A stretch of DNA of 19,496 bases, taken from assembly GCA_030445695.1 (NCBI GenBank), contig JASUTF010000017.1:1-19496 (forward strand). Reading direction: 5' to 3'. Positions 1-17,414 of this stretch are shown here, piece by piece. The first letter of the stretch is position 1. Each line of letters starts with the position of its first letter. This stretch comes from Candidatus Iainarchaeum sp. (GTDB taxonomy: Archaea > Iainarchaeota > Iainarchaeia > JAADDC01). The position numbers and the translations under genes are program-made. The notes under the pieces were generated by a model, which saw only the letters and a list, made by a program, of their open reading frames with translations, was not told the DNA's origin and made no database searches.

Positions 1-375
1 AACTCCACCGTCAATTCCGCCGAGGATTCCCCCTACAACGCCACCTACAACTTCGACGAAGACGCCACAGTCCGCTCCAGCTATAACTCCGGCGACGACG
101 GCACGTATGACGCCACAGTCCGCTCAACTAATGACGGTACTGTGTACTCAACCAACGATGGTGCATATGACAGCGGCGACGACGGCACAGTTCGTACAGC
201 CAACAAGATCGGATACTGTTCTGGTGATGATTCATCATACTTCTCCGGCGACGACGGCACAGCGTACTCCACGTACAAAACCCCTGATGATAGCGCAAAG
301 GATCTTGCGTATAATAGTGGCAACGATGCAGGCGTTTACTCCAACCATGATTCAGGCGTGAATAGTGGCTATTGA
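1..375 (+). CDS. C-terminal part of a Tyr/Ser/Asp/Gly repeat protein (5'-truncated by window edge)
   Basis: The frame is open from base 1 to a TGA at 373-375, giving 124 visible residues with no start. The product is low-complexity, rich in S, D, G, Y, N and T, and has almost no long hydrophobic stretch. A degenerate unit Y-x-S-G-D-D-G-T recurs: YNSGDDGT, YDSGDDGT, YCSGDDSS, YFSGDDGT, YNSGNDAG, with looser copies such as YSTNDGA and YSNHDSG. The reading frame is supported because the repeat serine switches between TCN and AGY codons while the protein motif is kept. SxDxGT resembles an Asp-box or calcium-binding turn, but the 7-16 residue spacing is too tight for classical Asp-box propellers. 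It may be a secreted surface tail or a multi-core substrate for the radical SAM enzymes that follow. No family is recognised and the function is unknown. Confidence 0.6.
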   Translation, partial: NSTVNSAEDSPYNATYNFDEDATVRSSYNSGDDGTYDATVRSTNDGTVYSTNDGAYDSGDDGTVRTANKIGYCSGDDSSYFSGDDGTAYSTYKTPDDSAKDLAYNSGNDAGVYSNHDSGVNSGY

Positions 376-390
376 TCGAGCGTAACAGCG

Positions 391-399
391 TTAAAAATA
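391..399 (+). promoter_or_regulatory. TATA box of the radical SAM operon
   Basis: TTAAAAATA is centred about 26 bp upstream of the ATG at 421, the same spacing as other leaderless genes in this window. It implies that the operon is transcribed separately from the repeat protein, whose stop lies at 375. A GGTGAT string at 412-417 is too close to the ATG to act as a normal ribosome binding site. Confidence 0.6.
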
Positions 400-420
400 C
401 AACGTCCCCCTGGTGATATA

Positions 421-1737
421 ATGCCCCATAACTTTGAGGCCGCAGAGATCCTTACCACTGGTTGGTGTCCCCTTAACTGCAAGTACTGTTACATACCAAA
501 GACAGACAAGATGAAAGATCTCCACGTGAGTATCATCGAGAGCATAACTGCAGATGATCTTGTTGACCGTATAAGATCCATCCCCGGCCCTAAAACCGTT
601 ATCGGTCTGTGGGGCACGGAGCCGATTCTCACCATGTTGATGATTGCAAAGCACCTTCCACGATTGAAGAAAGAATTCCCTGAGCTCAAGACAATTGCGT
701 TCTCGACAAGCCTTGTTCTGGACCCAAAAGTAATTGCTGACTTTGCGAGAGAGGCAGACAAATACGGGGTTGGCCTCCAGATTCAGATTTCTCTGGACGG
801 GCCGGCGTTCATTACCGATGAAAACCGTGCACCCGGCGTTACAGAGAAGGTGGTGAACAACGCTAAGCGCTTGGTCGACCTGCTCAATGAACATGGGGTA
901 AAGAGCGACACCCAAGTGCGCTGGAAGGCAACACTCACGATAGAAAACATCCGAATGATGAACGAAAACCCTGAACGCATACACGAGTACTTCCATTTCT
1001 TCGAAGAACTCACGAACGAGTTGCGAGAGCGCAACAAATTACCGAACATCCGTATTGAGAACAGCAGTGCCCCAACACTCACAGTTCCCGGAAAGTATAC
1101 TTCCGAAGATGGGAAGGAACTCGCAAAATTCTTCGAATTCCTTGCGGAGCACAACTATCCGAACACATATGTCTTCCGTTTCCTCCGGCTCATGAACTTT
1201 TACAAGGAACTTTACAAGACAAGGATGTTCACTTGCTCTGGCGGAGACAGCAACATTGGCTTTGACGGCAGATATATGCACATCTGCCACCGCACGTTCT
1301 ATCTGAATCGTCCAGAGTATGTGGAGTCTATAATGGGGATGCCAAAGTATCAAAACTGGGATGTTTCCCATCTTGATCGCGGAAACCTCAAAGAGATCGA
1401 GCAGTATTACATCGTGGATCCGAGCGATGAATTTAACTTAACCCGCTTCCAGTACGTTCTGCGCGGATACCACGATTTCATCCGCATGAAACTGGCAACC
1501 ACGTACGTTCTTGTGAAGGAGCTGGCATTGGCTGGTCAGGCATCGGAGGTTTATCTCTATGACGATGCAATGGCTGAGCTCCTTTCACTCTTTGTGAACA
1601 CGGCTTTGTCGTGTCCAATGGAGAATTTACTCAACACTGGGAGCCTTCACATTCCTCCTGTGAGCATGGTGAGGATATTTGCGAACGGTGCCTTTGAAGT
1701 CGTGCTTAGAGAGGCGGTAAAGTATGCCAGGGTTTGA
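421..1737 (+). CDS. radical SAM protein with incomplete SPASM-like C-terminus
   Basis: This 438-aa protein carries the radical SAM 4Fe-4S motif CPLNCKYC (C16, C20, C23; CX3CX2C). A GTEP variant of the SAM-binding GGE motif follows at 65-68, and ISLDGP at about 123-128 is a typical barrel strand. The C-terminal part has C272 and C289 around a GFDGRYMHIC segment, resembling the first half of a SPASM domain and ending in CHRT. The CX2CX5CX3C cluster is missing; only C398 remains. It may therefore bind one auxiliary cluster or none. The start at 421 fits a leaderless TATA-driven transcript. The 3' end overlaps the next radical SAM gene by 14 nt, so the two are probably translated together and may work as a pair. 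SPASM-type enzymes usually modify peptides or proteins. The substrate here is unknown; the adjacent repeat protein is a candidate. Confidence 0.88.
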   Translation: MPHNFEAAEILTTGWCPLNCKYCYIPKTDKMKDLHVSIIESITADDLVDRIRSIPGPKTVIGLWGTEPILTMLMIAKHLPRLKKEFPELKTIAFSTSLVLDPKVIADFAREADKYGVGLQIQISLDGPAFITDENRAPGVTEKVVNNAKRLVDLLNEHGVKSDTQVRWKATLTIENIRMMNENPERIHEYFHFFEELTNELRERNKLPNIRIENSSAPTLTVPGKYTSEDGKELAKFFEFLAEHNYPNTYVFRFLRLMNFYKELYKTRMFTCSGGDSNIGFDGRYMHICHRTFYLNRPEYVESIMGMPKYQNWDVSHLDRGNLKEIEQYYIVDPSDEFNLTRFQYVLRGYHDFIRMKLATTYVLVKELALAGQASEVYLYDDAMAELLSLFVNTALSCPMENLLNTGSLHIPPVSMVRIFANGAFEVVLREAVKYARV

Positions 1738-3106
1738 AGAGGAGAACGACGCACTTGTTCAAAGTTTCCTTGAACACAGTTTTTTCAAAGGATGGCGGGA
1801 GAACATACCGAACTGGAATCGTTTAGAGCTTTACATGGATCAAACCTGTAACCTTGATTGTGCATATTGTTACCTTGCAAAGTACGGCGACCGGTTGTAT
1901 CCTCCGTATCTGCGCAACCCCAAGACAATAGTCAAGAACGCCAAGATGCTTATTGATTGGCTTGTGGAAAACGGGTTCGCCCCAAGCATTGACATATTTT
2001 CGGGAGAGCCTACGATTCATCCAGAGTTCTATGACATCGTCCGCTATATCAACAAAGCATACAAGAATGCAGACCGCAGACCCGCTGCAATTGTCGTACC
2101 CACGAACTACTCTTTTCTCATGTCTGAACACTTGACAAAGAAAGTGGAGGATCTGATACATGAGAGCGAAATCCCCATTTTCCTCTCAGCCTCGGTTGAT
2201 GGCAAATATATGGAACAGAACAGACCTTTCAAGACGCACCCCGAACTTGATCCCCGTGGCGACAAGTTTTATCAGAAACTCTTTGAGTTCAACAAGAAAT
2301 ACGGGTTTGGTTTCCACCCTATGATCTATGCAGATTACATTGACAAGTGGAAGATCAACTTTATGTGGTTTCAGGAGAATTTCAGGGACTATCGTATTCC
2401 TTTCTGGAGTATCTACCTCCTCGAGGTTAGAAACCCCGAGTGGCGCCCTTGGCAACTACGTGAGTTTGGCAAGTTCCTGAAATTCCTTGTCTACTATACG
2501 TATTACGATATCCTTGAGGAGAGCAAACGAAAGTTCGTCAACTTCATCTACAATCTTCGCGGTTATAACATTTTGAACGTATTTTCCATTGTGGGTCGCG
2601 GCCTTGGCTGTTCAATTCAAGCGATGCTCTATGTACGGCTTGGGGACCTCTCCATTGTTCCGTGCCACAGGACATCTTACGATCAGTTTGTACTCGGGAA
2701 ATTTGTTGTGGATGACGGAAAGATAAAGGGTATAAAGGCGTTGAATCCTGAGCTCTTTTTGACTGTGTTTTCCCTTGATGCCAAGAATTTCCCATACTGT
2801 GAATCTTGTCCAATAAAACACGTTTGCTCTCATGGCTGTCTCGGAGCCCAGTATGAGTTTACAGGAGACCTATTCACCCCATTCCCGACTCTCTGTCAGC
2901 TTGAGTTGACGAAGGTTGCATCTATAGTCCAAGCGATGAAGGATATTGGTGTGTATAAGGATATATATCATCTTGCCCACCCAAATGTTCAGTCGGATCT
3001 TAAAAATATTGAAATGATCCTGGAGGAGATGGAAGATGAGACCCGAAGAGATGTACAACCAAAAGAAGGCGCAACTGCGTGCCCTTCTGGCAAACCCTGC
3101 ATTTAA
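1724..3106 (+). CDS. radical SAM/SPASM peptide- or protein-modifying enzyme
   Basis: This 460-aa protein has the radical SAM motif CNLDCAYC (C42, C46, C49) and SGEP at 93-96. Its SPASM domain looks complete: C296 and C314 (ending in CHRT), then the CX2CX5CX3C block C359, C362, C368, C372, and C391. Full SPASM domains hold two auxiliary 4Fe-4S clusters and are typical of RiPP maturases and anaerobic sulfatase-maturing-type enzymes. The tail after residue 440 ends ACPSGKPCI, adding C453 and C459, which are unusual extra cysteines. A GAGGCGGT ribosome site at 1711-1718 supports the ATG at 1724 inside the upstream gene. The shared CHRT motif suggests this gene and the upstream one are divergent paralogues. 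It overlaps the next gene by 71 nt. The class is clear; reaction and substrate are not. Confidence 0.92.
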   Translation: MPGFEEENDALVQSFLEHSFFKGWRENIPNWNRLELYMDQTCNLDCAYCYLAKYGDRLYPPYLRNPKTIVKNAKMLIDWLVENGFAPSIDIFSGEPTIHPEFYDIVRYINKAYKNADRRPAAIVVPTNYSFLMSEHLTKKVEDLIHESEIPIFLSASVDGKYMEQNRPFKTHPELDPRGDKFYQKLFEFNKKYGFGFHPMIYADYIDKWKINFMWFQENFRDYRIPFWSIYLLEVRNPEWRPWQLREFGKFLKFLVYYTYYDILEESKRKFVNFIYNLRGYNILNVFSIVGRGLGCSIQAMLYVRLGDLSIVPCHRTSYDQFVLGKFVVDDGKIKGIKALNPELFLTVFSLDAKNFPYCESCPIKHVCSHGCLGAQYEFTGDLFTPFPTLCQLELTKVASIVQAMKDIGVYKDIYHLAHPNVQSDLKNIEMILEEMEDETRRDVQPKEGATACPSGKPCI

Positions 3107-3713
3107 CCAGAATTTCCCTGGTCAGAGGGGCAGTTTGATTCGCCAGTCCCTTAATGTTGTTTTTAGGGATCTGGATATGCTGGTTCAGGGCAGACAGCCA
3201 AACCCTGGCCCCAATGAGGTGCGTCTGGTAGCGCATGCTGCTCGTATAGTACAAGAAATCGCCACTTACGAACCATTGAACAAGTACATGGCAGATCTAA
3301 TAAGCGTCTATGTCGAGGTTGTAAAAAACTGGAACGCACAAGTGGTACGAGCGAGGGACATAGACCTAATGCTCGACACCACTGCGAGACTTGTCGCAGG
3401 ATACATGACTTTCCTTGATGCGATAAACATTATGCGCCGATTTGTTGACCGCTTTGAGCGTATGATGCGATACACCCCACCATCCTTCGACCTCGCCAGG
3501 CATTATCTGCAGTTGGTTCTTAAGAAATATGAGCGTGGTGAACCTATCAACAAGTATGAGGAGGCGAAGCAGCATATTGTGCAGCAGAAGCAGGAATCTG
3601 AGAAGGACAGTGACCCCAACTCACAGGACAAGTCCGGGAAGAAAATGAAAGGGCGCAGCAAGAAGGAACCATCCACTGCAGATTCGCAACAATCCTCAGC
3701 CGGTAGTTGTTGA
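3036..3713 (+). CDS. helical protein of unknown family, third gene of the radical SAM operon
   Basis: This 225-aa protein is rich in amphipathic helix-forming sequence to about residue 180 (long Leu/Val/Arg/Lys-spaced segments). A hydrophilic low-complexity tail of Gln, Lys, Asp and Ser follows, ending SAGSC. I see no signal peptide, membrane segment or catalytic motif. The ATG at 3036 lies 8 nt after a GGAGGA site (3022-3027), so the 71-nt overlap with the radical SAM/SPASM gene looks real. An alternative ATG at 3051 lacks such a site. The tight coupling suggests a partner, substrate-binding or scaffold role for the two radical SAM proteins, but this is inferred from position only. Its end overlaps the convergent gene at 3696-4136 by 18 nt. 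It is not a recognisable RiPP recognition element by eye. Confidence 0.72.
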   Translation: MRPEEMYNQKKAQLRALLANPAFNQNFPGQRGSLIRQSLNVVFRDLDMLVQGRQPNPGPNEVRLVAHAARIVQEIATYEPLNKYMADLISVYVEVVKNWNAQVVRARDIDLMLDTTARLVAGYMTFLDAINIMRRFVDRFERMMRYTPPSFDLARHYLQLVLKKYERGEPINKYEEAKQHIVQQKQESEKDSDPNSQDKSGKKMKGRSKKEPSTADSQQSSAGSC

Positions 3714-4136
3714 TCCGCACGCCTCTGGATTTTCTTTCAAATCTTTCTCATTCGCCGCGTTCACAGTAATACATACTGCATTGCCATTGTAGATAAACTC
3801 GAAGATATAGTTCCCGATTTGGTTTGACAGCCTGAGCGAGGATTTTCCGATTGCCTCTGGCTCTCCGTAGTTTTTTATGGTATATTTATATGCCTCTATG
3901 AATGCTTTGTTACAATCTACTGCCCAGAACGGCGGTTCAATTCCCTCACACGCGATATTGATTACATCCTCTGGTACTTTAGGACTCATATTGGCAGTTG
4001 CAAGAAATACTGCGCCCACAGCAAATATTGCAACGATGGCAAGCAACCCACCGAGTAGTTTTGCATCTATCTTTTTACTGCTGTTTTTCTTGTTTTCACT
4101 TTTTGCATTTCCTGAGGTAGTTTTTTGCCTTGCCAT
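3696..4136 (-). CDS. single-pass membrane-anchored hypothetical protein
   Basis: This 146-aa protein has a Lys/Ser/Asn-rich N-terminus of about 27 residues. One hydrophobic segment follows (LLGGLLAIVAIFAVGAVFLA), then an exposed domain with four cysteines (in ACEG, VDC, AVCI and EAC), consistent with two disulfides. I chose the ATG at 4136 rather than an upstream in-frame start at 4295 for two reasons. The longer version would run through tatC and the promoter region, and 4136 sits 27 bp from the palindromic TATA element centred at 4163. It diverges from tatC. Topology is probably N-in, C-out. No family recognised. Confidence 0.7.
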   Translation of the reverse strand: MARQKTTSGNAKSENKKNSSKKIDAKLLGGLLAIVAIFAVGAVFLATANMSPKVPEDVINIACEGIEPPFWAVDCNKAFIEAYKYTIKNYGEPEAIGKSSLRLSNQIGNYIFEFIYNGNAVCITVNAANEKDLKENPEACGSTTTG

Positions 4137-4187: not shown

Positions 4188-4907
4188 GTGGATGAACGCT
4201 TTGCGCGGCACATGGAGGATTTTCGCCGATTGATCGTGACATCCCTTGCCATATACGTGGTTACATATATCGTATCTTTGCTGTTCTTCCCTCACATTTA
4301 TCGTTTCATTGTTTCCTCAGTTGGCGCGACTATATCGGACGTTTATGCCTTTGGGATCGGTGATATTATTGGTTTTTATTTTACAGCTCCAGCGGTTGTG
4401 GCAATCCTGATCGCGTTTCCTGTAATATCAATTCTGTTTTACCAGTGGGTGAAAGATGCTCTGTTTCCGCAAGAAAAATCATTTATTGTAAAATATGCGC
4501 AAATATCTGCCCTATTTTTCCTTTTCGGTGTCGTTTTGAGCTTTTTCCTTGTTCCTCGCCTCGTAGATTTATCGGCATACTTCGGAAGGCTCTTGGGTGT
4601 AACGATCATATATTCTGCCCGTGAGATTTTCAACATCTGGCTTGCTCTCGCCGTCGTTCTTGGAATTGTCTTTCAATTTCCCATTCTGATATCACTCCTT
4701 ATCCGTGCAGGTATTGTGTCGAAGGAGGCTCTTAGGGCGGCGCGTTTGTACCTTTATCCACTGTTCTATCTTGTATCTGCGGTTATTACCCCTGGCGACC
4801 TGTTGGTAACAGACCTATTGCTCCTTTTGATATTCGTCGTGCTTTATGAGGGGAGCATTGTGTTTAGCAAACCCCGTACCCATGCCAAACAACGCTCCAG
4901 AAGATAA
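4188..4907 (+). CDS. tatC: Sec-independent protein translocase TatC
   Basis: This 239-aa polytopic membrane protein is the receptor of the twin-arginine translocase, which exports folded proteins. Diagnostic segments are HMEDFRRL near the N-terminus (the HLxELRxR region), QWVKDALFPQEK after the second membrane segment, LGIVFQFPILI in the middle, and ITPGDLLVTD then LYEGS near the C-terminus. Six hydrophobic segments can be counted. The GTG start at 4188 is 25 bp from the shared TATA element and gives a leaderless message. tatA follows with its own TATA box overlapping the end of tatC. The ITPGD motif differs from the more common ITPPD. Confidence 0.93.
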   Translation: MDERFARHMEDFRRLIVTSLAIYVVTYIVSLLFFPHIYRFIVSSVGATISDVYAFGIGDIIGFYFTAPAVVAILIAFPVISILFYQWVKDALFPQEKSFIVKYAQISALFFLFGVVLSFFLVPRLVDLSAYFGRLLGVTIIYSAREIFNIWLALAVVLGIVFQFPILISLLIRAGIVSKEALRAARLYLYPLFYLVSAVITPGDLLVTDLLLLLIFVVLYEGSIVFSKPRTHAKQRSRR

Positions 4908-5104: not shown

Positions 5105-5272
5105 ATGTTGGTCAATGAGGAAAAGCGCAAGTTCCTTCGCTTTCTTCTTGCTGCCCTTGCAGTTGTTGTTGCGTACATCGTCTTTGGTAATGCAAAGGAA
5201 ATTCCCAAATCATCTTTCAATCTGAAGGGCAGTAGTGTCCGTGTTGAAGGCGACACACTCGTAGTGGGCTGA
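5105..5272 (+). CDS. 55-aa single-pass membrane protein downstream of tatA
   Basis: This small ORF begins MLVNEEKRKF, has a membrane helix of about 20 residues (residues 11-29) and a hydrophilic end (SVRVEGDTLVVG). The ribosome site GAGGTGG at 5096-5102 overlaps the tatA stop, so it is probably translated from the tatA message. I do not recognise the family. Position suggests an accessory Tat component or an unrelated membrane peptide. It ends 23 bp before the convergent cdc48 stop. Confidence 0.62.
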   Translation: MLVNEEKRKFLRFLLAALAVVVAYIVFGNAKEIPKSSFNLKGSSVRVEGDTLVVG

Positions 5273-5291
5273 GGTGGCCAATGTTTCTACA

Positions 5292-5303
5292 GGGGTTAAC
5301 CCC
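5292..5303. terminator. Perfect 12-bp palindrome at the cdc48 stop
   Basis: GGGGTTAACCCC contains the cdc48 TAA and lies in the gap between convergent genes. It could form a small hairpin in either transcript, but no T-run follows, so terminator function is a guess. Confidence 0.25.
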
Positions 5304-7623
5304 ACCCCCACCTCTTCGCCAGTTCCTCGTACTCCTTGATCTGCTCGGGGGTGAGGGAGGGGTGGATCTTCTTTAACGCCTCCTCGAAGTGGCGCATGGA
5401 GACGCCATCAATGTGTTCTTTCCCTTTTCGGACCGCCTCACGTATGGCAGCCATTCCTGCCTCCCTGCAGACGGCTGCTATGTCTGCACCGGTGTATCCC
5501 TCTGTTCTCTTGGCTAACTCGCGGAGATCCACGTCGTCCGCCAGTTTCATACCCCTTGTGTGGACCTTGAAGATCTCGTACCTCCCCTCCTCGTCGGGTG
5601 GCGGCACGAATATGAGTTTTTCTAGCCGTCCTGGCCTGAGAAGCGCTGGATCGACGAGGTCTGGACGGTTAGTCGTTGCGATGACCACCACGTCCTTCAT
5701 CTCCGCCACGCCGTCCATTTCGGACAGTAGTTGCGCCACGATGCGCTCCGTAACCCTGTTCGTGTCGCTGCCACGGACGGGAGCAATGGCATCTATCTCG
5801 TCGAAGAACACAATGGATGGCGCCACGAGCTTGGCCCTTCGGAATATCTGGCGCACAGCCTTCTCGCTCTCACCCACCCACTTGCTCAGTATCTCTGGAC
5901 CCTTGATGGCGATGAAGTTGGCGTTCGCCTCGTTGGCCACAGCCTTCGCTATGAGGGTCTTGCCTGTTCCAGGTGGACCGTAGAGCAGTATTCCCCTCGG
6001 TGGCTCAATTCCCGCCTCCTTGAAGAGCTCCGGGTACTTCAGGGGCCACTCTATCGCCTCGCGGACCTCCTGCTTGACGTGCTCGAGTCCGCCTATGTCG
6101 TCCCAGGTTACCTTGGGCACCTCGATCATCACTTCGCGCATGGCGCTCGGTTCCACCCTCTTCAGCGCCTCTATGAAGTCGTTGTATGTGACGAACATCT
6201 TCTCGAGGACTTCCTTTGATACGGGGCCCTCTCCCGCCTTCTTTATGTCGGGGATCGCTCTCCGCAGTGCTATCATGCCTGCCTCCTTGCAGAGCGCTGC
6301 GAGGTCCGCACCTGTGTATCCGTGGGTTCTGTCCGCTATCTCCTCGAACATCCGGTCCTTCAACCGGTCCTCGAACTTCCTCCTCTTCTCCTCTGGCAGC
6401 TTCTTGGCAAGTTCCCTTGCCTCTTCGAGCGTCTTGGCCTTTGTTATGCCCTCGAAGTCCTTGTCTTCCCTGGCCAGTTCTTCTGCCACGCTCTTCACTG
6501 CCCCGAGGTCGTAGTAGACGTCGAGCGGCATGTTCCTGCTGTGTATCTTGAGTATCTCCACACGCCCTTCCCTGTCAGGTATGCCTATCTCTATCTCACG
6601 GTCGAAGCGGCCGGGACGGCGGAGTGCGGGGTCTATGTCGTCGGGACGGTTGGTCGCCGCGATGACGATGACGTCTCCCCTGCTCTTCAGGCCGTCCATC
6701 AGTGTGAGGAGCTGTGCCACGACTCTTCTCTCGACGTCGCCCTTGGTTTCCTCGCGCTTTGGTGCGATGGCGTCTATCTCGTCGATGAATATGATGGCCG
6801 GCGCGTTCTGCTGTGCCTCCTCGAAGACCTTGCGCAGGTTCTCCTCACTCTGGCCGTAATACTTGCTCATGATTTCAGGACCGTTAATGGACAGGAAGTG
6901 CGCGTTCGCCTCGTTCGCAACGGCCTTTGCCAGGAGCGTCTTGCCCGTTCCGGGGGGACCGTAGAGGAGAACGCCCTTGGGCGGCTCAATGCCCAAACGT
7001 TTAAACACCTCCGGGTGCTTCAGCGGGAGTTCCACCATCTCGCGTATGAGTTCGATCTCCTTCTTCAGGCCGCCGATGTCTTCATACGTAACGTCGCTCA
7101 CGTGTGCCTGTACGGGCTTGTCGGATATGCGCACCTTCGTCTTTTCCGTTATGATCACCGCGCCCTGCGGCTTTGTCTTGGCAACAACGAAGGGTACCGC
7201 CAGGTACTGGTAGCCGTAGGGAATGTATATGTTCACGATGTCGCCTTGGACCACGGGCGTGTTTATGAGTTGCTCGTGGATCTCCGCGCTGTATTCCTTT
7301 ATCTCTCGCGGGTACTCTCCCTCGGGCGGTGCGAGGAGGACTTCATCTGCCTTCTTGACCTCTGCCTTTACCACTTCCACCATCTCGTCAAGGGAGGTTC
7401 CCGCGTTGTGTCTCATTGTTCCGTCCATGCGTATGATGTTGGGGTTGTGGAACTCGTCGTCCGGCGCGAGGCGCAACGCTTTGGCCACCGTTTCCCTTTC
7501 GCCGCGGATGAGCACGATATCCCCCTGGGATATTCCAAGTTCGTCGAATATGACAGATGGAATGCGAACCACCTTTCTGCCCACGTCCCGGTCGTATGCC
7601 CTCTTTACCTTCAGGTATGCCAT
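5296..7623 (-). CDS. cdc48: Cdc48/VAT-type double AAA+ ATPase (p97 homologue)
   Basis: This 775-aa protein unfolds substrates with ATP, in archaea often feeding the proteasome. It has a Cdc48 N-domain (about 1-185). D1 has Walker A GPPGTGKT at 222-229, Walker B IIFIDE, and the [17 protein letters not shown] region. D2 has a second GPPGTGKT and [16 protein letters not shown]1 carries an extra segment of about 53 residues (roughly 370-423) between the RNMPL and THGYTGADL motifs. From memory, Thermococcus-type Cdc48 proteins have a comparable insertion. The ATG at 7623 is preferred over 7650 because GGAGGTGAT at 7627-7635 sits just before it, overlapping the stop of the upstream wHTH gene. It lacks a C-terminal HbYX tail and ends RWGWG. 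Confidence 0.95.
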
Positions 7624-7627
7624 TCCA

Positions 7628-8026
7628 TCACCTCCTTCTTGGCAGTCCAAGCGCGCTATCTATGGCACGGGCCACAGTTTTCATGTCCTCGAAGATGCGG
7701 AGCACGTCACGCTCCATCTCCTCGATGGTTCTGAGGAGCGTGCTTGCCCGCAGGCGGTAGCCCCGCCCGTCCTTTGTGATGAGCCCCATGTCCACGAGTT
7801 TTGCCACGTGGTATGCCACGGACGTCCTTGGATCCCCCCTCCGTCCCGCGAGCTCCGTTGCCGATATGCTGTCGCCTTCCTGCAAGATCTCCAGCAGGAT
7901 TTCTCTGTACTTCTCAATCATGCTCTCTGCAATCCCCAGTGTCCTGAGGAGCCACTCTACGGACTCTTCAAGGTCATCGCTGTAGGGCCTCTCCACGTAT
8001 GCGAGTGTGATATTTTTTACTGTCAT
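7628..8026 (-). CDS. winged-helix transcriptional regulator, probable heat-shock repressor (HSR1/Phr-like)
   Basis: This 132-aa protein has a winged HTH at about residues 44-92 ([18 protein letters not shown], then [19 protein letters not shown] and a basic wing GYRLR), followed by a C-terminal helical segment likely used for dimerisation. It is shorter than the roughly 200-residue Archaeoglobus HSR1 and Pyrococcus Phr that I recall. Context drives the call: it lies upstream of cdc48 in one operon and diverges from hsp20. Archaeoglobus HSR1 is likewise encoded with cdc48 and hsp20, and Phr represses hsp20 and an AAA+ ATPase gene. The ATG at 8026 is 26 bp from TTTTTAAATATT; the in-frame TTG at 8032 is less likely. 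TTTACTGTCAT is repeated twice at the transcription start and looks like its own operator. Confidence 0.8.
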
Positions 8027-8669: not shown

Positions 8670-9086
8670 GTGCGGGGTGTGTATGCACTTGCCCTTGTGA
8701 TCGCCTCCATCCTCGTTCTTCTGGGCCTCTCATCGTCGTTCTTTTCCGTTGACAGGATGAACACCGGCTTCATGGACTACAGGAAGGCCGTGTACCAGTC
8801 GTATCTCCAGCACGACGTCGAGTATTCGCTCAGGAAGACGTTCGAGGCGATAAAACAGCAGTGCGTTGCCCTCGCTGCTCTGGGGAACCCCGACAAGTGC
8901 CAAGGAGAGGCGGATATAATGTATGCAAACTTCGTTGCTGCCTGGTCGCTCCACGGCTTTGTGATGGCGGGCGGGGGCGTTTCTGCCATCGTGACGCCGG
9001 CGGGGGCAGACGTGCGCCTCGTATCGGACCTGCACTGGAAGAAGGGGGAATACGAGGGGACGATCCCCAAGGGATACGGTGGTTGA
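8670..9086 (+). CDS. small membrane-anchored pilin-like or secreted protein
   Basis: This 138-aa protein starts at GTG 8670. Its short basic N-terminus (MRG) is followed by a hydrophobic helix (YALALVIASILVLLGL) and an exposed domain with two cysteines (QQC, DKC). It is first of three tightly spaced genes: the next ATG follows its TGA directly. The MRG-hydrophobic architecture is shared with two neighbouring proteins. The region also encodes true class III pilins, so I read it as a minor pilin-like subunit. The QxSxE motif is absent, so the call is tentative. No family is recognised. Confidence 0.62.
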   Translation: MRGVYALALVIASILVLLGLSSSFFSVDRMNTGFMDYRKAVYQSYLQHDVEYSLRKTFEAIKQQCVALAALGNPDKCQGEADIMYANFVAAWSLHGFVMAGGGVSAIVTPAGADVRLVSDLHWKKGEYEGTIPKGYGG

Positions 9087-9341
9087 ATGGACTGGTGGTT
9101 CGTGGTCATATACGTGGCGTTCGTTCTCGTCGCCCTTGGCATCGTCGCGTCCACGCCTGATATCGCGTCTTTCACGGACTTCGGCTGTGCCCTTTCGGCG
9201 GATGCTGCCTCCATACACTTGTACTCCAACGTGCACGGCGACGGCTGTCCTTACGCTGGGGACCACGTGGGGGAAGTGCCCCTTGTGGGAAAGGCAGCGG
9301 TGACGCCGTTGGGAGTCGTCTATGAGGCGGTGGGTAAATGA
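9087..9341 (+). CDS. small membrane protein in the pilin-like operon
   Basis: This 84-aa protein has an N-terminal membrane helix (WWFVVIYVAFVLVALGIVA) and an exposed part with two cysteines (GCAL, GCPY) that could form a disulfide. Its ATG directly follows the upstream TGA, and its TGA overlaps the downstream ATG (ATGA at 9338-9341), so the three genes are translationally coupled. I do not recognise the family. Confidence 0.62.
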   Translation: MDWWFVVIYVAFVLVALGIVASTPDIASFTDFGCALSADAASIHLYSNVHGDGCPYAGDHVGEVPLVGKAAVTPLGVVYEAVGK

Positions 9342-9598
9342 GGGGGTTCGTTCTCTTCCTTGAGGGGTTGCTGGCCTTCCTCATACTCGTTGCATTTCTC
9401 CTGCAGTTCTTCGTCCCGCTGCCCGACACGCAGGGCATCGTTTCCTTCGTCCAGAAGAACGACGATTTCACGGCAGCCCTTGAATCGGGGGTGCCCCCGC
9501 CCTATCCTCCCTATCTTCCCGGGATGGAGTGCGAGGCGGTCCGTTACTCCACGGCAACGTCTCCCTTGGTTACCGTTACTGCATACTGCGTCAAATAG
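9338..9598 (+). CDS. prepilin-like small membrane protein
   Basis: This 86-aa protein begins MRGFVLFLEGLLAFLILVAF. A basic Gly-ended leader followed by F and a Glu within the hydrophobic helix resembles the prepilin pattern, though the Glu lies at +6 rather than the usual +5 if cleavage follows MRG. The exposed part is proline-rich (GVPPPYPPYLPG) with two cysteines. It is third in its operon, and its last 8 bp overlap the convergent class III pilin gene. Inference: a minor or initiating pilin. Confidence 0.62.
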   Translation: MRGFVLFLEGLLAFLILVAFLLQFFVPLPDTQGIVSFVQKNDDFTAALESGVPPPYPPYLPGMECEAVRYSTATSPLVTVTAYCVK

Positions 9599-16526: not shown

Positions 16527-17002
16527 ACTTCTCCTTTCTTCTCTGGGTAATCCCCGCATACATCGCTAATTCCGCCGCCACATTCTCCAAATACGTTCCC
16601 TGGAAGCGACACCCTGTGGACTTCGGGCTCGTGCTGGGGGACGGACGCCGCCTCCTCGGTGATGGGAAAACGTTCGAAGGCCTTTTCATCGGCGTGCTGC
16701 TCGGTACTGCTGCCGGATACATTGTTTTTACCCCCTTTGGACTTCCCTATAACCCTTTCCTCATATCTCTCGGTGCCCTGCTCGGCGATATGGTTGGCTC
16801 CTTCGCCAAGAGGAGGATAGGGCTGCCAAGAGGGGATCCGGCCCCCGTTCTGGACCAGCTGGACTTTATTCTGGGCGCCCTCGCCCTTGCAGGCCCCTTC
16901 ACAGCAGCAGAGACCGCAATCATCATTCTGATCACCCCCCTCATCCACGGGGCCGCCAACATCATTGGATACTTTATAGGTGTGAAGAATGAGCCGTGGT
17001 GA
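16523..17002 (+). CDS. carS: CDP-archaeol synthase CarS
   Basis: This 159-aa integral membrane protein belongs to the CarS (former DUF46) family, which transfers CTP to unsaturated archaetidic acid to make CDP-archaeol, the precursor of polar archaeal lipids. Motifs: IPAYIANSAATFSKY, then LGDGRRLLGDGKTFEGLFIG with the DGKT element, a LGDMVGSFAKRRIGLPRGDP loop and VLDQLDFILGA, the likely metal and nucleotide site. Length is normal. It is translationally coupled to eS1 and overlaps the archaeosortase by 14 nt. Confidence 0.95.
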   Translation: MNFSFLLWVIPAYIANSAATFSKYVPWKRHPVDFGLVLGDGRRLLGDGKTFEGLFIGVLLGTAAGYIVFTPFGLPYNPFLISLGALLGDMVGSFAKRRIGLPRGDPAPVLDQLDFILGALALAGPFTAAETAIIILITPLIHGAANIIGYFIGVKNEPW

Positions 17003-17414
17003 CTACATACGCTTTGTGGTGGCGTTTCTCCTTCTTTATGTTGCCCTCCGGTTCACGATGGGTTATCTGCTCCGCTCTCCTACGGCTTACATCGTTTCCC
17101 TTCTCAGCGGCTGCGAATACGGGGGCGAAACTGTTGTCTGTGGCTATGAGGAGTACAGGATCGTTCCGGAGTGCACGGGCATCGTCTCAATATCGCTCTT
17201 GCTGGCCCTCCTTTTTGTTCTGCCACTTTCCAGCGAAAGGAAGATCCGTGCCGCTGTCCTTGGATCGATCTTCCTCTACATACTGAACGTCCTCCGCGTT
17301 TACGCCCTGATAGAACTTACGCAGTCGATCTTCGCCTTTGATCTCGTTCACGCATTTTTCTGGCTCACATCCCCCGTTCTGGTGATACTTTACGTGCTCT
17401 GGCTCCTCAAGTAA
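16989..17414 (+). CDS. archaeosortase/exosortase-family transpeptidase
   Basis: This 141-aa polytopic membrane protein carries the exosortase/archaeosortase triad: C62 in VPECTGIVSISLLL, R103 in ILNVLRVYALI and H121 in FDLVHAFFW. In haloarchaea, archaeosortase A processes C-terminal tripartite signals of surface proteins and helps attach them to lipid. At 141 residues this is a compact member, matching short archaeosortase subfamilies. It overlaps carS, whose product makes the lipid precursor; a functional link is attractive but inferred. I see no complete substrate with a sorting tail in this window. The upstream repeat protein ends NSGY with no membrane helix and is not a candidate. Confidence 0.87.
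   Translation: MSRGDYIRFVVAFLLLYVALRFTMGYLLRSPTAYIVSLLSGCEYGGETVVCGYEEYRIVPECTGIVSISLLLALLFVLPLSSERKIRAAVLGSIFLYILNVLRVYALIELTQSIFAFDLVHAFFWLTSPVLVILYVLWLLK

Follow-up and report, generated by a model that had tools for sequence, protein, structure and literature searches.

An apparently undescribed radical SAM cassette, probably for the maturation of viral fibres, in an archaeal chromosome

Most of what is known of radical SAM chemistry on peptides comes from enzyme cofactors and small natural products. The locus studied here raises the question of what two radical SAM proteins, encoded beside a repetitive protein in an archaeon, might modify, and whether the genes involved form one system. 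The window, i.e., the whole stretch of DNA that was analysed (19,496 bp), is the entire contig G000:C28 of a source assembly with a total of 664 kb and 88.6% completeness. Its genes look archaeal, among them TatC, an archaeosortase-like protein and, recognised by eye, CDC48, MCM and S3Ae. Positions 1-3713 of the window had originally been predicted to encode a repeat protein followed by three overlapping genes, and the four ORFs were confirmed at these coordinates: a tetrad-repeat protein (1-375, + strand), of which 124 aa are visible, the N-terminus being lost at the 5′ contig end; rSAM1 (421-1737, +), a radical SAM maturase with a reduced SPASM region; rSAM2 (1724-3106, +), a radical SAM protein with a complete SPASM domain; and an all-helical protein of 225 aa with the C-terminal motif PPAFxLSRHYL (3036-3713, +). 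The ORFs of rSAM1 and rSAM2 overlap by 14 bp and those of rSAM2 and the helical protein by 71 bp. The original prediction gave the operon its own promoter, for which a TATA-like sequence, TTAAAAATA (391-399, +), about 26 bp upstream of the rSAM1 ATG, is a possible archaeal candidate. In viral relatives of like gene order, the last repeat gene mostly lies -16 to +17 nt from rSAM1, which argues for a single transcript in those relatives.

These relatives were found by scanning IMG/VR with rSAM1, with the degenerate pattern CPMENLLNTG and with alignments of rSAM2 and rSAM1. The cassette is present in 28 IMG/VR contigs of uncultured viruses, 22 of which are non-redundant after the removal of near-identical contigs. 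When every ORF of these loci was surveyed, both rSAM1 and rSAM2 were present in each of the 22, and when their neighbours were listed, as the original prediction had proposed, one or two tetrad-repeat proteins stood beside the pair in 21/22 and a helical homologue was detected in 20/22 (as two copies in four of these). This is the reverse of what would have refuted the original prediction, a constant absence of such repeat proteins beside homologous rSAM pairs, and it strongly supports the earlier view of the repeat protein, the enzyme pair and the helical protein as one modification system. Tetrad-positive ORFs numbered 78 of 2,043 (redundant loci included), all within cassette neighbourhoods, the loci having been fetched around the rSAM genes, so that the association is gauged only as seen from the enzymes.

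Tail, fibre or baseplate genes neighbour the cassette where this was tested, and nearby matches include tape measure, portal, major head protein, baseplate, tail-fibre families and terminase. The usual order is repeat-repeat-rSAM1-rSAM2-helical; in L056, L057, L058 and L060 it is rSAM1-helical-repeat(s)-rSAM2-helical. A variant group (L065, L066 and L068), to which the one contig of the 22 with no tetrad protein belongs, has instead a YcaO gene and a 334-aa protein of nine-residue TCSNGSHSN-like repeats, which in L065 (3760-6571, +) adjoin the rSAM pair. Some hosts of the cassette viruses may be bacteria, as suggested by a ClpP encoded in L057 and by the DnaB and DnaG domains of L048. The window enzymes had no match among 50,697 GenBank phage records, a distant cassette member gave one weak partial match (30%) there, and in phage and plasmid records together there was nothing or weak partial matches. 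A group 1 glycosyltransferase lies in or just after some cassettes (L038 8134-9069, L067 9272-10198 and L055 11096-12091) and may possibly act on the same fibre. The rSAM1 of L032 (2955-4311) is broken into two frames that overlap, either by a true frameshift or by an assembly error.

Both window enzymes exceed the cut-off of the Radical_SAM family (PF04055; 38.8 bits for rSAM1 and 34.2 for rSAM2, cut-off 29.5). rSAM1 is 25-49% identical to 21 viral homologues and rSAM2 32-57% identical to 22. The original prediction of an incomplete SPASM region in the first enzyme and a full one in the second holds at the level of conserved residues. Across 22 homologues, rSAM1 has exactly six invariant Cys: those of the CxxxCxxC motif (C16, C20 and C23; 466-489, +), C272 and C289 in a C-S...C-H-R region (1234-1287, +), and C398 (1612-1614, +), which in closer members lies within CPMENLLNTG. 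In rSAM2, ten Cys are invariant across 23 homologues, comprising the CxxxCxxC motif (C42, C46 and C49; 1847-1870, +) and seven SPASM Cys (C296, C314, C359, C362, C368, C372 and C391; 2609-2896, +). The seven-Cys SPASM motif is thus present in rSAM2 and absent from rSAM1, and the score of rSAM2 against the SPASM model TIGR04085 is slightly under the cut-off (26.4 against 27). The C-S...C-H-R region is common to both enzymes, and rSAM1 looks like a relative in which the ligands of a single auxiliary cluster have been retained and those of the other are gone.

By sequence, the solved structures nearest to rSAM2 are CteB (5wgg, E 3e-13), then 8vpo (TigE) and ChlB, and those nearest to rSAM1 are ChlB, CteB, 8vpo and anSMEcpe. 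An AF2 model of rSAM1 (pTM 0.89) gave its best fold matches to CteB (Z 23.2), anSMEcpe (22.4), ChlB (21.3) and TigE (19.0). Most of these relatives modify peptides or proteins, which would fit a protein substrate, the reaction itself not being given by the fold. Across all enzyme members PapB is the commonest family match, and neither window enzyme reached the cut-off of a curated NCBIfam equivalog. The third protein, also predicted earlier to be helical, is all-alpha in its AF2 model (mean pLDDT 88), and fold searches with it gave no significant match. The pairing of each enzyme with a helical gene in L056, L057, L058 and L060 suggests a role as an enzyme partner or in substrate presentation.

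The candidate substrate of the enzymes is the repeat protein, whose link to them is genetic. The visible part consists of about 30 tetrads (e.g., YNSG DDGT YDAT VRST NDGT), and its best 80-residue stretch carries 1.00 bit of residue-phase information at period 4 (z=22.6 against shuffles). The periodicity noted originally is therefore borne out, and the unit proposed, YxSGDDGT, is not: the repeat unit is a four-residue tetrad with an eight-residue superperiod, YxSGDDGT being one form of the octad. Pooling 40 proteins and 996 tetrads gave a consensus of roughly [YVHDE]-[DN]-[STAG]-[TGS], with Y, V, D, H or E at position 1, mostly D or N at position 2, S, T, A or G at position 3, and T, G or S at position 4. 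An excess of identities is clear at lags 4, 8, 12 and 16 only and is stronger at 8 and 16, and hydrophobic and polar residues alternate at position 1 (484 alternations against a mean of 383 and a maximum of 426 in 500 shuffles).

The original prediction also proposed an aromatic three-residue crosslink, which is only partly supported: the underlying enrichment of aromatic-x-Ser is real. Ser occupies position 3 in 168/383 tetrads with an aromatic position 1 (44%) against 180/613 others (29%; p=4e-6, an optimistic value, as related repeat proteins are not independent). The window protein has mainly Tyr-x-Ser/Thr, with nine aromatic-x-Ser/Thr against 4.2 in shuffles (z=3.0), and a single His and a single Cys in 124 aa. 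However, position-1 residue types differ strongly among cassette members; aromatic tetrads amount to 1% in L060 and 10% in L057, where Val, acidic or other residues are used instead. An aromatic crosslink therefore cannot be the universal product and was rejected as such, and a single chemistry common to all members is not obvious from the differing residues. A per-repeat thioether was likewise rejected, being impossible with the one Cys of the window protein.

The repeat proteins span 98-594 aa, and many of the viral ones start with a common domain (MGFSWTxIxxGDI...NEI). LamG lectin domains occur in two repeat proteins, and one from L060 passes the Pfam cut-offs for Gp5_trimer_C and DUF2345, the octad families of T4 gp5 and VgrG. 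This match, which could reflect low-complexity similarity, suggests a trimeric beta-helical shaft for that member; neither family matched the window protein (1-372) or the other repeat proteins scanned with Pfam. The kinship of the window protein with viral fibre proteins rests on its repeat and its position, its N-terminus being missing. In L061 (5179-6577), the stretch that separates rSAM1 from the second tetrad protein seems to carry further repeat-like sequence in different frames, which suggests a broken reading frame.

In the rSAM1 and rSAM2 trees, the window copy nests within viral diversity, as the sister of viral L031 in both (support 0.97 and 0.995). Over 22 pairs, the distances of the two enzymes are correlated at 0.868 (Mantel p<=0.0005), as would in part be expected of any two co-inherited genes. 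At E 1e-20, rSAM2 was found in 1/87 genomes of the phylum, and no relative emerged when genome contigs were scanned with rSAM2 or with its first alignment. Weak, local rSAM matches in related genomes belong, where they were followed up at fibre loci, to different cassettes (G001, G005 and G002), and those of L092-L095 represent further rSAM proteins whose surroundings are unrelated. The GC3 values of the cassette (0.52-0.60) are lower than those of CDC48 and MCM (0.74-0.76), which fits a horizontal gain. The simplest reading of these comparisons is that the window cassette would be of viral origin, by horizontal transfer. Further along the window, 16989-17414 encodes an archaeosortase-like protein (exo_archaeo signature, 42.6 against 23 bits; the archaeosortase D model is under its cut-off).

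In the archaeon, the cassette is bordered by an opposing gene for a small protein (3696-4130, −) in which a membrane segment was recognised by eye near the N-terminus, and which has weakly similar and similarly placed counterparts in G001 and G005, and then by TatC (4188-4907, +). TatC is rare in the sample of the phylum: it occurs in five of the 55 genomes searched, three of which have it beside an rSAM/repeat cassette. On the corresponding side of TatC, G001 and G005 have fibre-like genes together with a DUF483-like protein, an rSAM of another kind and a repeat protein (L089 6268-9294, −, and L090 4867-7971, +, respectively). Aromatic-x-Asp units are enriched in their repeat proteins (z 8.8 and 11.1), and the single rSAM of each locus ends in HxDG repeats. 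In G002, of the same genus, a separate contig (L091, ~5253-7878, +) encodes PHSSSS-type His-x-Ser repeats and an HxsB-like rSAM (275 bits, under the cut-off of 370), together with apparent homologues, recognised by eye, of window genes 8670-9598, including a pilin-like one. In our reading, these are fibre loci that would differ between relatives in their modification module. Searches of the archaeon's own genome, made with no positive control, found neither the viral N-terminal fibre domain, which the truncation could explain, nor the pilin-like gene of G001 and G005. In summary, the original prediction had missed the viral tail-module cassette, the tetrad unit and the archaeal chromosomal locus beside TatC.

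Taken together, we consider it likely, with a probability of roughly 75%, that the four genes constitute a maturation cassette for a fibre, a virus-derived system in which radical SAM enzymes would modify the fibre repeats. The helical protein would present or chaperone the nascent repeat chain in the reducing cytoplasm, where tetrad side chains would be oxidised by rSAM1, which has the ligands of a single auxiliary cluster, and by rSAM2, which has those of two. The likely product would be a carbon-carbon or similar link in each repeat or each octad, at aromatic-x-Ser in most members and at Val or acidic residues in others. Such a modification may stiffen the shaft or shape its binding surface, and the conserved N-terminal domain of the viral repeat proteins would attach them to the tail. 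The archaeon would have acquired the cassette from a virus and now probably uses it to modify a surface fibre, relatives filling a like locus with other pairs of rSAM and repeat protein. Export of the modified fibre by the adjoining Tat machinery is a guess from the adjacency in three genomes. It also seems somewhat probable that, more generally, tailed viruses of anaerobic prokaryotes use rSAM pairs to modify every tetrad or octad of their fibre shafts, and that archaea have captured the cassette for surface fibres.

The viral affinities could also mean that the window cassette is the end of a provirus or of a chimeric contig, with a role solely in viral tail-fibre maturation during infection. 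The closest relatives are viral, with the window copy nested among them, and the cassette lies at a contig end with a GC3 unlike that of the core genes. However, the site beside TatC in G001 and G005 holds an analogous cassette, fibre-like genes and a small membrane protein, so that it looks like a cellular fibre locus, and no L031-like portal was found in the archaeon's own genome, a weak argument as this search had no positive control. We regard a provirus or chimeric end as possible, though less likely than not.

The same enzymes could have another target, such as a different tail protein, a glycan or a cofactor, while the repeats do nothing but bind metal ions, e.g., calcium. The acid-rich repeats (SGDDGT) might indeed bind Ca2+, and several cassettes include a glycosyltransferase. 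Yet the repeat proteins are constant neighbours of the enzymes, even when reordered between the two, and the fold relatives of rSAM1 are mostly enzymes acting on peptides or proteins, which makes another target unlikely. More improbable still is that the repeat protein is a usual RiPP precursor, of the cyclophane (triceptide) or ranthipeptide kind, cut and secreted as a bioactive peptide. SPASM enzymes, repeated cores and weak similarity to PapB and cyclophane-forming families would agree with a precursor of this kind, but the size range of the repeat proteins, their place among tail genes, the LamG domains of some and the T4 gp5/VgrG match of one do not, and no protease or transporter was seen to recur as a fixed member of the cassette.

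If fibre maturation is the correct reading, virion fibres would be a target of radical post-translational modification, and the cassette would represent a type of modification, of virion and cell-surface proteins, of which we found no description. It would also explain why paired SPASM genes are kept among the tail genes of some viruses. The aromatic, Val and acidic tetrads and the YcaO variant would offer enzymology a rich set of substrate/enzyme pairs, and for the archaeon the cassette points to a fibre locus with a modification module swapped between relatives.

Open-licence papers, searched for radical SAM proteins in connection with tail fibres or with RiPPs of phages, gave no published description of the system, which appears to be a conserved and apparently undescribed radical SAM maturation system of viral fibres that is present in an archaeal chromosome. 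The Campylobacter phages CP220 and CPt10 are, like the cassette viruses, tailed phages, and carry many radical SAM genes, which their authors interpreted as metabolic (PMC2853527). HxsABCD resembles the window in having two radical SAM maturases and a repeat protein of the aromatic-x-Ser type. However, rSAM1 scores 33.6 bits against the HxsB cut-off of 370 (TIGR03978) and 17.6 against the HxsC cut-off of 267.9 (TIGR03977), and membership was rejected on these scores; the matches listed for rSAM2 at E 1e-5 include neither HxsB nor HxsC. The window repeats, moreover, are Tyr/Val/Asp tetrads and not His-Xaa-Ser, the context is that of viral tails, and the partner protein is different. The PapB ranthipeptide maturase and the SCIFF maturase CteB are close in that PapB is the commonest family match and CteB the nearest solved structure, yet rSAM2 (67.8 bits) and rSAM1 (33.7 bits) are far below the PapB cut-off of 340. 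Against the cyclophane (triceptide) models AmcB, YhhB, GrrM and FxsB, the window enzymes reach at most ~36 bits, with cut-offs of 310-445. The octad superperiod is shared with the C-terminal beta-helix of T4 gp5 and with VgrG DUF2345, families that, as noted, the window protein does not match.

The remaining comparison is with TvgA/TvgB, in which a radical SAM enzyme modifies Val in repeated TVGG tetrads with a change of −2 Da per site, the product being cyclopropylglycine (PMC9062424). As would be the case for the window, a radical SAM/SPASM enzyme of TvgA/TvgB acts on short-repeat substrate units, and TigE (8vpo) is among the nearest solved structures to both window enzymes. Unlike TvgA/TvgB and TigE, the window has two enzymes and a helical partner, and its presumed substrate is a long protein in a fibre locus; its repeat protein contains no TVGG. 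The action of TvgB on TVGG is the nearest precedent for a radical SAM chemistry carried out repeat by repeat.
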